Source: Thermoanaerobaculum aquaticum
Lineage (GTDB): Bacteria > Acidobacteriota > Thermoanaerobaculia > Thermoanaerobaculales > Thermoanaerobaculaceae
Direction of reading: 5' to 3'
DNA length: 41,274 nt
Assembly: GCF_000687145.1 (NCBI RefSeq)
Contig: NZ_JMFG01000017.1
Coordinates: 1-41,274 of the forward strand
Shown here: positions 5,074 through 22,555 of the stretch, in pieces
How the letters are laid out: the number at the start of each line of letters is the position of its first letter
Numbering within the stretch: the stretch's first letter is position 1
The notes under the pieces: generated by a model
Told to the model about the DNA's origin: nothing
What the model saw: only the letters and a program-made list of their open reading frames with translations
The model's database searches: none
Program-made: the position numbers and the translations under genes

Positions 5074-5143
5074 TTGACAAGCAAAAAAAGCTTTCATCCC
5101 CGCGACACCAAACCCCGCGCCCGGACGCGGGGGGAAGGGAGGG
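5074..5143 (+). promoter_or_regulatory. Leader of the Cys-rich protein gene: -35 box, A-tract, hairpin, ribosome-binding site
   Basis: TTGACA at 5074-5079 is followed by an A-tract and then a perfect 7-bp hairpin CCCCGCG (5113-5119)/CGCGGGG (5126-5132). A GGGAAGGGAGG purine tract comes directly after it. No good -10 box is visible at 17 nt. The same order (TTGACA, A-tract, CCCGCGCCCGG hairpin, GAAGGGAGG) occurs at 21140-21217 before another small secreted product. The hairpin could control access to the ribosome-binding site or stabilise the mRNA. Confidence 0.55.
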
Positions 5144-5158
5144 TTGACAATCAGAAGA

Positions 5159-5584
5159 ATGCGCCTGAGCAACTTGCGTTCCTTAGGACTTGGCTGGCTC
5201 CTAGCAGTGGCCTTGTTACTGCCACAGAAAGTGGCCGGGCAGGTCTGTTCGGCCTGCGGGCAGGACAAGTATTTGCCTGGTGGCCCGACGGTTGGAGCGC
5301 GAGGAATTTGTGAGCCGGCTTTTTCTGGTTTCGCGAGTTGCGATGCGGGAGAGCGATGCACCGTCAAAACGATCACGACCGAAAAGCCCGACCCAGCCAA
5401 CCCTGGTAACACCATTAAAGAGACAAGGCAAATCAGGGAGTGCATTCCTCGTTGCAATGTTGAAGGGCTTTGCGGCAGCGGCGGGGGTGATGGTGGTACG
5501 GCGGCGCGGTTTGTTAACATGTGGGACGGAGGTCTGAGTTCTTGGTTTTGTCCTGCCGAGTATGCGGCTTGGCAGTGCGCGTAA
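5159..5584 (+). CDS. Secreted cysteine-rich hypothetical protein
   Basis: 141 residues from ATG 5159. A basic start (MRLSNLR), a hydrophobic core (GLGWLLAVALLL) and a likely cleavage site after KVAG give a clear signal peptide. The mature part has 10 cysteines, including VCSAC, CDAGERC, ECIPRCNVEGLC and a C-terminal WQCA, so disulfide bonding outside the cytoplasm is likely. A TTG at 5144 is an alternative start but lies right on the ribosome-binding tract. No family is recognised. A terminator-like hairpin separates it from the CarboxypepD-like gene, which could make the small product more abundant than its neighbour. Confidence 0.65.
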   Translation: MRLSNLRSLGLGWLLAVALLLPQKVAGQVCSACGQDKYLPGGPTVGARGICEPAFSGFASCDAGERCTVKTITTEKPDPANPGNTIKETRQIRECIPRCNVEGLCGSGGGDGGTAARFVNMWDGGLSSWFCPAEYAAWQCA

Positions 5585-5649: not shown

Positions 5650-7689
5650 ATGAGGGCGGTTGTGTGGTTGTCAGCGGCGGTGCTTACCCTTGGTTTTGCA
5701 GCGGCAGGTGCTGTGGAAGTGGAGATCACCTTCTCCAGTTCAGGTACGGACATCGCCGGAAAAACTCGTTACGCAGCGGTGCTTCAGGGTAGAGCCCTGG
5801 TGGCGGAAGTGGAGCTGCCACCGGGGGAGGTTTCCTGGAAGCTTCGCCTTGAGCCGGGCGAATACACGGTAGCCTGTGGCGCCGAGGGGTACGGCAACAA
5901 GAGCCTCAGGATGGTCGTACAAGAGGGGAAGCAGCAAGCGGTGCGGTGTGGATTGCTGCCTTTGGTGGCGGTGAAGGGGCGGCTTGTTTCCAAGATCAAC
6001 GGCAAACCCATAGCCGGTGGCACGGTAGGTCCCGCGTTTCTCGCTCTCCACGAGCTTCCCTTTGAAAGCAAGCTCCTCGAGAGGCACCTGCGCTTAAAAC
6101 ACGAAGGCGTAAGCGATGAGGAAGGGCGGTTTTCCTTTGGGCTTCTTCCCGGCGATAACGTTGTTCTCGTGGCCACAGCAGCGGAGCATGGGTTTCGCGT
6201 GATGGGCCCGCTGGTGGTGGGCTCCCAGGGGCTTGATTTGGGTGATGTGGCGCTGGAGGGTGGGGGGCGGGTGAGGGTGCGGGTGGAGCCCTGGGGACAG
6301 GACTTTGCCCAAGGGAAGTGGTGGGTGGATTTGGTTCCCTCCGGCCAGCTTCAGGAAAGCAGCTCGCGGCTATTGGATCCGCAAAGTGTAATTATGGCTT
6401 TGCTTTCCAAGCCCTTAGGCGAAAACGGCGAGGTCTCCTTTGAGGCGGTACCTGCGGGAACCTACGTGGCGCTTTTGAGCACGTTGCCGGAAAGGCTTTT
6501 GCGGCGCAGCGGCGGAAGCATTCCCGAAGGGATGACCTACCGGCCTTCCCATAGCACGTCGCCTTTTGTGGTGGCGGCTGGCAGTTTCCAAGAGGTCCTG
6601 TTGAGGCCCACGCGTTGGGAGGTGACGGTGAGCGTTTCGGGCCTTGAAAAGGGCCGCTGTGCGGACTTCGAACCCTGGGCGTTTTCTCCAGTGGTGAATT
6701 ACACCGTTTCCGGCCATTGGGAAAACCAGAATGCTTGTGAGTTTTCGGTCCTTCTTGAGGCTTCCGGGCCGTGGATTTTGGGGTTGAGGCGGCGGGGAGG
6801 GGCGGGGGAAAGCGCTGTTCCCCTGGGAACGGTGGATATCCCGGAGGGCTCAGGGAAAAAGGAAGTTCAACTGACGGTTGCTATCCGGTCGGTGGAAGGA
6901 AAGGTTGTGGATGCTGCCGGTAACCCCGTGCCTTTCGCCGAAGTTCGCCTGAGCAACTCGCTTTCTTGCAGCAATCGAGGATTCAGTTGGCGCGGCAAGA
7001 CAGACCGAAACGGGAGCTTCCTGTGCCCCGCAGCCCCGGCAGAGCCGCTGGTCGTCTGGGCGTATCGCTCGGATCTGGGCTGGGCCATGGAAGAAAAGGT
7101 CATGGACGAACCACTGGTCCTGCGCCTGGTGGCGGGCAAACAGGTGAGCCTTCGGGTGCTCAATGAGGAAGGAAACCCGGTGAGCGCCCAGCTTCAGTTT
7201 TCGCCCCAAGGCGCCGAGGGGCTTACGGTTGGTGTGCTGGACGAAAAAGGCGAAGCTGTCATCCGCCATATGCCCACTGTGGATGGCTCGCTTTTGGTGG
7301 CTCTGCTGAGCCCGGATGCCGAGGCAAAAAGCCTGGGTCATTTCAAGCTGTTTGTGCCGGCGGAAAAGCGCGGCTTTTTGGGGGTGTATCAAGCTCTACC
7401 CGGTGCCAAGGTGAGCTGGTGGCCCGGGAATTTGCCGAAAGGCGGTGCTTTTTGCGCGCTGGAAACGGAAGATGGCGCCATACTGGGCACGGATGCCTTT
7501 GAGGTTTTGACCTTTGGTAGCGATGCCTCCCGCCCCGGGTTGGTCTCCAAGCGGTGGGAGAGGTTGGCGCCAGGGCGTTTCCGGCCGGTGGTGACCGACG
7601 AAGCCTGCAAACCGATTTGGCGGGGCAAGTGGTTTGTGGTAGGCGCCGGTGAAACCGTTGAGCTCAGGGAAAAAGCACAGTTGCAGTAA
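5650..7689 (+). CDS. Large secreted protein with CarboxypepD-like beta-sandwich repeats
   Basis: 679 residues. The frame is open further upstream, but ATG 5650 follows GGAGGG and opens a signal peptide (MRAVVWLSAAVLTLGFAAAG, cleaved near AGA-VEVE). At least two stretches look like carboxypeptidase-regulatory/transthyretin-like domains. One is at about residues 110-210 (VKGRLVSKINGKPIAGGTV). The other is at about 415-475 (VEGKVVDAAGNPVPFAEVRL, then DRNGSF). No catalytic domain or membrane anchor is evident, so a structural or ligand-binding exported role is inferred. It is probably co-transcribed with the Cys-rich gene upstream, subject to the hairpin between them, and ends at a strong stem-loop. 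Confidence 0.75.
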   Translation: MRAVVWLSAAVLTLGFAAAGAVEVEITFSSSGTDIAGKTRYAAVLQGRALVAEVELPPGEVSWKLRLEPGEYTVACGAEGYGNKSLRMVVQEGKQQAVRCGLLPLVAVKGRLVSKINGKPIAGGTVGPAFLALHELPFESKLLERHLRLKHEGVSDEEGRFSFGLLPGDNVVLVATAAEHGFRVMGPLVVGSQGLDLGDVALEGGGRVRVRVEPWGQDFAQGKWWVDLVPSGQLQESSSRLLDPQSVIMALLSKPLGENGEVSFEAVPAGTYVALLSTLPERLLRRSGGSIPEGMTYRPSHSTSPFVVAAGSFQEVLLRPTRWEVTVSVSGLEKGRCADFEPWAFSPVVNYTVSGHWENQNACEFSVLLEASGPWILGLRRRGGAGESAVPLGTVDIPEGSGKKEVQLTVAIRSVEGKVVDAAGNPVPFAEVRLSNSLSCSNRGFSWRGKTDRNGSFLCPAAPAEPLVVWAYRSDLGWAMEEKVMDEPLVLRLVAGKQVSLRVLNEEGNPVSAQLQFSPQGAEGLTVGVLDEKGEAVIRHMPTVDGSLLVALLSPDAEAKSLGHFKLFVPAEKRGFLGVYQALPGAKVSWWPGNLPKGGAFCALETEDGAILGTDAFEVLTFGSDASRPGLVSKRWERLAPGRFRPVVTDEACKPIWRGKWFVVGAGETVELREKAQLQ

Positions 7690-20782: not shown

Positions 20783-20913
20783 GTTGCCTCCTTTCCAAAG
20801 CCGGGAGGTCGCCCCGTTTCCAGGACGGCCCTTGGGGTCCACCGGCCCCTTGGCCGGTGCCCACCGCCCGTCCGCCTTGGGCGCAAGCCTTTAGGCGGCC
20901 CGGGTCGGAGACA
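20783..20913 (-). promoter_or_regulatory. Candidate molybdenum/tungsten cofactor riboswitch in the moaA leader
   Basis: The roughly 130-nt leader between promoter and GTG is strongly foldable. Read on the minus strand, CCGCCT pairs with AGGCGG, GGACGG with CCGTCC, and CACCGGCC with GGCCGGTG across an AAGG tip. The last part holds CCTCC, which can pair with the GGAGG of the moaA ribosome-binding site (loop about 12 nt), giving an on/off switch for translation. Position before moaA and this architecture match the Moco/Tuco RNA class. The class assignment rests on pattern memory and was not scored with a covariance model. Confidence 0.65.
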
Positions 20914-20918
20914 ATCAC

Positions 20919-20947
20919 ACTATGGGGCTTTTATCAGCAAAAGGCAA
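20919..20947 (-). promoter_or_regulatory. Promoter of the moa-mod operon
   Basis: On the minus strand TTGCCT (20947-20942) lies 17 nt from CATAGT (20924-20919). Both boxes match 4 of 6 consensus bases. Transcription would begin about 7 nt downstream, right at the edge of the structured leader. Confidence 0.55.
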
Positions 20948-21139: not shown

Positions 21140-21217
21140 TTGACAACAAAAAAAAAGGCGTGGTACTGTCCCGCCGAAAAAAAGCCCGCGCCCGGGAGCG
21201 GGGCAGGAAGAAGGGAG
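21140..21217 (+). promoter_or_regulatory. Promoter and hairpin leader of the second secreted-peptide locus
   Basis: TTGACA (21140-21145), 18 nt with an A9 run, then TACTGT (21164-21169) make a good sigma70-type promoter. A hairpin CCCGC (21185-21189)/GCGGG (21198-21202) follows, then the purine tract GGAAGAAGGGAGG about 10 nt before ATG 21226. The order and several exact words are shared with 5074-5143. Confidence 0.68.
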
Positions 21218-21225
21218 GAAAGGTT

Positions 21226-21450
21226 ATGACGAAAGCGTTGCGAGGTGTTTTCTTGAGCTTGGGAGTAGTGGCCGGGTTGGCTGCTCCTGCCGTAGCTTAA
21301 ATTGACGTATGCCATACGGAGCGCGTAGGTAATTGCACCAAGCAGGTCTGCCACAAGTTCCAGGGAGAACGGCTGGTGAGGCTCGATGACGGGACATATT
21401 CCGTGGTTTACTACGGATACCTGGGTACGGTGACAGTGACCTACTGTTGA
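21226..21450 (+). pseudogene. Secreted Cys-containing peptide gene with in-frame TAA at the signal-peptide junction
   Basis: ATG 21226 has a strong ribosome-binding site and opens a perfect signal peptide (MTKALRGVFLSLGVVAGLAA, then PAVA). The next codon is TAA (21298-21300). The same frame then stays open for 49 more codons to TGA at 21448-21450. These encode a small domain with four cysteines (IDVCHTERVGNCTKQVCHKF ... VTYC) and several aromatic residues. A single C-to-T change from CAA (Gln) would explain the stop; the related-locus protein at 5159 has Gln at the equivalent place. Either the gene died recently, the stop is read through, or a base call is wrong. The next gene starts 10 nt later. 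Confidence 0.65.
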
Positions 21451-21460
21451 GAAGACTGAA

Positions 21461-22555
21461 ATGAAGCTGGTGTTCTCTTTTCTGGTTTTCTTTTCGTCGT
21501 TGGCTTTTGGCTTGGAAGACGGCGGCTGTCTTGCTTTGGGGGAGGGGGTACCACGCCCCCTCCCCTACGCGGTTGATAAAGACTCCGATGATCTTCCCTT
21601 TTTGGCTGTTACTGGCTCTTGGGTGGCGGTGGTCTACGTCCCACAAAAGGAGCTTGCCGAGCCGAGCCATGTGCGCGTACAGCTCTTTCACCATGGCAGA
21701 AGGAACGAAGAGCGTATTCTCTGGCTTCGGGGGTTATTGCCGTCGCCCCGCACGGTGGAGGATCAAAGCGGCAAAAAGGTAACAATAGGCGTTCAGCAGG
21801 TCAGCGTGGGTCCGGGCGCTGAGCTTGTGGCCTTGGTCTCAGGTTCTCGCATCTTGGTATTTCGCGCGGAGGCTTTCTTGGGTAGCGTGGATGCTTCACC
21901 GCCGGCGGACCCAGTGTTAACTCGCGACCGGCTTTTTTGGGCACCGTGGGCTGCAGAAAAGGGAGACGTGGTGCTTTGGCAGTGGGGGTTGGACCCTTCT
22001 CTTCCGCCGGAGCCGGTTCTCCGTCATGAGCGGGAAGGGGAGCCCGGGAAGAAGTGGGTGGCAGTGAGGGAGGACGGGGGCTTGTGGGTGGTGGATGGAT
22101 TTACCGGTGAAACCACGCTTTTAACGGCGACCGGTGCGAAAAAGCGGCAATTTGCTGCTCCTATTCGGCTTCCAGTTGAGCCCGATGAGCGAAAAGCGAA
22201 CCGCGCTTTGGAGCTGGAGAAAAGCCTCGCTGCCGAGCTTAAAGACGCCACGCGCCGGCCACCCCAGGTGGAACTGAGGCCAGCGCCGCGGGAACCGTGG
22301 GTGGCCTGGGTTGGTACCATGGGGAAGGATTTGCTGGTAAAGCCTGCGGGTGAGGCAAAGCTCCTTTACTGGCTTGCCGACGGTGCGCAGGGCTGGCAGT
22401 GCTTGCAAATCGATTCCAGCCGTCCGGTGAGCGCGATCCGCTCGTTCCCCGATGGTTTTTGGTTGGTGCACGCCGAAGGGAGCCGGTTTTTTAGCGTGGA
22501 AGACCTGAGGGGTTTGCAACAAAAACGGCAGGCTTCAAGCTACCGTGGGCGGTAA
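21461..22555 (+). CDS. Secreted hypothetical protein
   Basis: 364 residues with a clear signal peptide (MKLVFSFLVFFSSLAFG). The mature part is rich in Trp, Gly and short beta-strand-like segments separated by charged turns (WVAVVYVP, AELVALVSGSRILVF, GGLWVVDGFTGET, GFWLVHAEGSRFFSV). The spacing suggests a beta-propeller-like fold, but no family is recognised. It follows the interrupted peptide gene by 10 nt in the same transcription unit. Its 3' end overlaps the convergent moeA by 16 nt, and no terminator is visible between them. Confidence 0.65.
   Translation: MKLVFSFLVFFSSLAFGLEDGGCLALGEGVPRPLPYAVDKDSDDLPFLAVTGSWVAVVYVPQKELAEPSHVRVQLFHHGRRNEERILWLRGLLPSPRTVEDQSGKKVTIGVQQVSVGPGAELVALVSGSRILVFRAEAFLGSVDASPPADPVLTRDRLFWAPWAAEKGDVVLWQWGLDPSLPPEPVLRHEREGEPGKKWVAVREDGGLWVVDGFTGETTLLTATGAKKRQFAAPIRLPVEPDERKANRALELEKSLAAELKDATRRPPQVELRPAPREPWVAWVGTMGKDLLVKPAGEAKLLYWLADGAQGWQCLQIDSSRPVSAIRSFPDGFWLVHAEGSRFFSVEDLRGLQQKRQASSYRGR

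Follow-up and report, generated by a model that had tools for sequence, protein, structure and literature searches.

The window analysed here is a stretch of 41,274 nucleotides from the genome of the hot-spring bacterium Thermoanaerobaculum aquaticum (2,660,928 bases in 68 contigs). It carries a short gene for a secreted peptide that is interrupted by a single in-frame stop codon. The gene begins with an ATG at 21226, preceded at a distance of 7 nt by the Shine-Dalgarno sequence GGAGG (21214-21218, forward strand). The ATG opens a predicted signal peptide of 24 codons (21226-21297, forward strand) ending in AVA, which conforms to the AxA motif of signal peptidase I. The predicted cleavage site is immediately followed by TAA (21298-21300) as codon 25. 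Beyond this stop the frame is open for 49 codons with four cysteines (21301-21450, forward strand), the last two residues being YC, and closes with TGA at 21448-21450. The translation of 21226-21450 is MTKALRGVFLSLGVVAGLAAPAVA*IDVCHTERVGNCTKQVCHKFQGERLVRLDDGTYSVVYYGYLGTVTVTYC*, where asterisks are stops. The sequence confirms what the initial annotation had described, namely an intact ribosome-binding site, start codon and signal peptide, a TAA after AVA and an open frame of 49 codons with four cysteines.

A second gene starts eleven bases past the end of the peptide frame (21461-22555, forward strand). This partner gene has an intact ORF and encodes a secreted protein of 364 aa, which carries a signal peptide as well. 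The structure model of the partner is of low confidence (pLDDT 61); NHL and other beta-propellers are the closest PDB structures to it, and the fold is probably a propeller.

The peptide gene is preceded by a promoter-like sequence (21140-21169, forward strand), in which TTGACA (21140-21145) and TACTGT (21164-21169) are separated by 18 nt with an A-tract. This is followed by a GC-rich leader hairpin, GCCCGC-GCCCGGGA-GCGGGGC (21184-21204, forward strand). The leader, the promoter and the partner ORF all look intact. The same arrangement of TTGACAA, A-tract and CCCGG GC hairpin with the loop GCCCGGGA was found upstream of a second gene in the window, at 5074, and of six others in the genus. The reversed pattern, used as a control, gave no matches. 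The exact pattern was absent from 14 other genomes of the family and is confined to the genus. Within the window the second leader (5074-5124, forward strand) precedes an intact gene (5159-5584) whose product of 141 aa is secreted and Cys-rich, with 10 cysteines, and directly behind this member lies a gene for a secreted protein of 679 aa (5650-7689, forward strand).

All of the leader-bearing genes encode short secreted proteins that contain cysteine, and in most cases another secreted gene comes next. The promoter elements and the loop sequence are common to these genes, which on this basis form a small regulon whose products are secreted and Cys-rich. The further members outside the window are G000:C8:220121 (L070), G002:C19 (L071), G002:C36:21302 (L072), G002:C46 (L073) and G001:C153 (L074). 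L071 and L074 are related to each other (CYGWDTT..C); the remaining leader-bearing proteins are unrelated in sequence. In the alignment of the leader hairpins pairing is found in 95% of cells, yet there is one two-sided change only, and the covariation is too slight to claim a conserved RNA structure. The fold of the hairpin alone does not exceed that of shuffled sequences, and a search of the leader against Rfam found no family.

Several statistics bear on whether the part after the TAA was ever coding. Given the base composition, an open run of 49 codons is expected with P of about 0.10-0.24, and four or more cysteines in such a run with P of about 0.07. The open run by itself is weak evidence for coding, and these figures leave room for a frame that is open by chance. 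The part after the stop has the highest codon-use score of the six frames. A protein search with the read-through peptide against 60 relatives, genome_contigs and viral_contigs returned only chance matches to other signal peptides. One candidate from these searches, L013, was rejected as a match since it is ComEA.

The evidence that goes beyond chance is in-frame homology to an intact peptide at the same locus of a congener (G002). At the moaA locus of G002 the same leader lies divergent from moaA and is followed by an intact peptide gene, behind which lies a gene related to that of the partner. The G002 peptide has 66 residues and ends GSVTITYC, closely resembling the GTVTVTYC at the end of the window frame. 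When the 49 residues after the stop were aligned to this peptide, the score beat shuffled sequences at p of about 0.002, this being the one syntenic relative known and a highly diverged one. The other two frames gave 0.28 and 0.40 in the same test and hence no homology. Because only the frame of the signal peptide aligns, the sequence beyond the TAA is former coding sequence. The shared YC and stop at the end and the shared operon neighbour point the same way. A chance frame, in which this part never encoded anything, is largely refuted by the syntenic relative, and we regard it as the least credible of the readings considered here.

The partner at the syntenic locus is 33% identical to the window partner in a global alignment; the local match is weak (E 1e-4). 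A profile built from four partners detects the G002 syntenic partner at 1.9e-22. The moaA genes of the two congeners are 87% identical and the partners about a third. On the minus strand just upstream of moaA in the window, 20850-20922 has a sub-threshold match to the Moco/tungsten riboswitch (21.2 bits, cut-off 36).

Weak relatives of the partner were found in three genomes of the family. The A1/A4 partner profile matches 21461-22555 at E 2.9e-125, a value that includes the window protein as a member of the profile. An alignment of seven partners was too diverse for a scan of contigs. In the T. aquaticum genome the partner family is represented by the window copy only. Taking the sequences upstream of each profile match, we obtained a set of peptides to compare with the window gene. 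Small secreted Cys-rich peptide frames lie directly upstream of the partner relatives in G002:C15, G002:C39, G003 and G005, and each of them combines a signal peptide with four or more cysteines. The window gene shares the trait of a signal peptide and a short mature part with at least four cysteines, but there the mature part is behind the stop. A cysteine at the very end before the stop is present in the window peptide and in those of G002:C36, C39, C15 and G005, but not in that of G003. Conservation in the family lies in the mature part with its many cysteines and in the end of that part, not in the signal peptide. Neither the peptides nor the partners match any Pfam or NCBIfam model above cut-off, and the peptide/partner family is undescribed and absent from both collections.

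The other copies show how this family decays. The peptide gene of G002:C39 (L055 1530-1729) has a frameshift between the ATG and the signal peptide. The leader-bearing peptide of G002:C46 (L073 3463..3236, minus strand) has an in-frame TAG ten residues past the start of the mature part, and this broken gene sits before a propeller-like partner. The partner frames are broken in G002:C50 and G005:C31, and in G001:C66 only remnants are found. Most relatives are metagenome bins, and a single frameshift in these may be an error of assembly, although the G002 loci concerned also contain long frames that are intact. To judge by the sequences, breaks at different places in different copies are the pattern of birth-and-death decay. 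The initial annotation had held that scattered frameshifts in relatives would mean plain decay, and the relatives' copies are indeed broken in different ways.

A stop at the signal-peptide junction was found in none of the 11 other members. The initial annotation had called the place of the stop striking. The odds are 1/73 for the exact codon, 3/73 for a stop within one codon and about 1/25 when only codons one step from a stop are counted, and they are post hoc because the placement was noticed after the fact. The position of the TAA exactly at the junction is only mildly unusual and gives the claim weak backing.

Reassignment of the stop codon was rejected as an explanation, as TAA is an ordinary stop in this genome: it ends 7 of the 24 ORFs in the window and also the intact syntenic peptide. 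TAA is generally the tightest stop in bacteria. Programmed or leaky readthrough, also proposed in the initial annotation, would make the TAA a regulated gate that a fraction of the ribosomes pass to make the full pre-peptide. The clean frame with its four cysteines and the codon use beyond the TAA, which is still coding-like, are what such a gate would leave. However, the stop is TAA with A as the next base, no stable structure follows it (fold z +0.4), and the junction stop is not conserved among the 11 other members. We found no positive evidence for readthrough and consider it very improbable.

A functional short product is still less probable. Here the 24-residue peptide, or a remnant of the signal peptide released from the membrane, would act by itself, and the intact expression signals and signal peptide together with a stop exactly at the junction would fit such a role. 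No relative, though, has such a short form ending at the junction, and family conservation lies in the part of the protein that this product lacks. Enterococcal pheromones derive from signal peptides. The likeness to them is that translation would yield nothing stable but a signal peptide; they differ in that theirs belong to a full lipoprotein, and any activity of the window's signal peptide would be conjectural.

An error in base calling or assembly at the TAA of a normal gene was also put forward in the initial annotation. One wrong base could explain everything and the assembly is a draft. T. aquaticum MP-01 (2.66 Mb, 68 scaffolds) was assembled from Q30-trimmed MiSeq reads (PMC4056298). 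If the genome is that of strain MP-01, such reads rarely leave a substitution error at any one position of the consensus, and an error is improbable here, if less so than readthrough. The cultured clone could also have fixed a mutation, which the reads would not show as an error.

We favour the view, which we consider likely, that one recent nonsense mutation inactivated what had been a gene for a small secreted Cys-rich peptide. It follows from the intact relative at the same locus, the lack of a junction stop elsewhere and the different breaks in other copies. A family that is often gained, diverged and lost, combined with a recent nonsense mutation, is the best explanation and accounts for all observations. 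The initial annotation had suggested a recent loss by a change from CAA to TAA; the nonsense loss stands, while the CAA step finds no support. At the equivalent position the relatives carry Gly, Ile or Tyr and none has Gln, so that they do not reveal the ancestral codon at 21298.

According to this model of nonsense loss, the peptide gene opens an operon of two genes, the second being that of the secreted propeller-like partner, and the operon would be driven by the promoter and hairpin leader that the genus employs for several of its secreted Cys-rich peptide genes. We infer that transcription and translation would start normally and that the product would be the 24-residue signal peptide alone, which would then be discarded. 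The disulfide-rich mature peptide would be lost. Since the ORF of the partner remains open, this protein would presumably continue to be made. The intact peptide perhaps binds the partner, or a target on other cells. Binding of this kind, outside the cytoplasm, is proposed because peptide and partner both evolve very fast.

The mature part after the TAA has no further stop, indel or loss of cysteine. The gene must have been lost very recently if the frame is not being maintained in some way, and this counts against plain loss, as do the intact appearance of leader, promoter and partner ORF and the reliance on a single syntenic relative. One suggestion, which we consider unlikely, is that the TAA switches the gene on or off from strain to strain, a phase-like loss, and is not a dead end. 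It would act within an undescribed regulon of several operons, all pairing a small Cys-rich secreted protein with a partner that is also secreted, under one promoter/leader-hairpin element, with fast divergence and repeated loss as in a self/non-self or antagonism system.

The locus resembles bacterial nonsense pseudogenes of fast-evolving secreted small proteins in its intact expression signals and single in-frame stop, in the intact relative at the same locus and in the decay of other copies by other routes. It differs from this class in that the stop happens to be at the signal-peptide junction and the mature part is as yet without further damage. NVEALA-type small secreted peptides adjoin 6-bladed propeller genes in Bacteroidales. 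The window locus is like them in that a gene for a small secreted peptide with cysteines immediately precedes one for a secreted propeller-like protein. In contrast, the window family is from a different phylum and has no NVEALA motif, and no peptide or partner matched the NVEALA Pfam model; a literature search on NVEALA found no paper.

The TAA itself would be an ordinary loss, and the undescribed peptide/partner family is of more interest. Annotation would miss the family because its short peptides can hardly be aligned and many of their genes are broken. The leader that they have in common provides a handle for finding its members, and the very fast divergence makes a function outside the cell, in competition or recognition, directly testable in the cultured strain.
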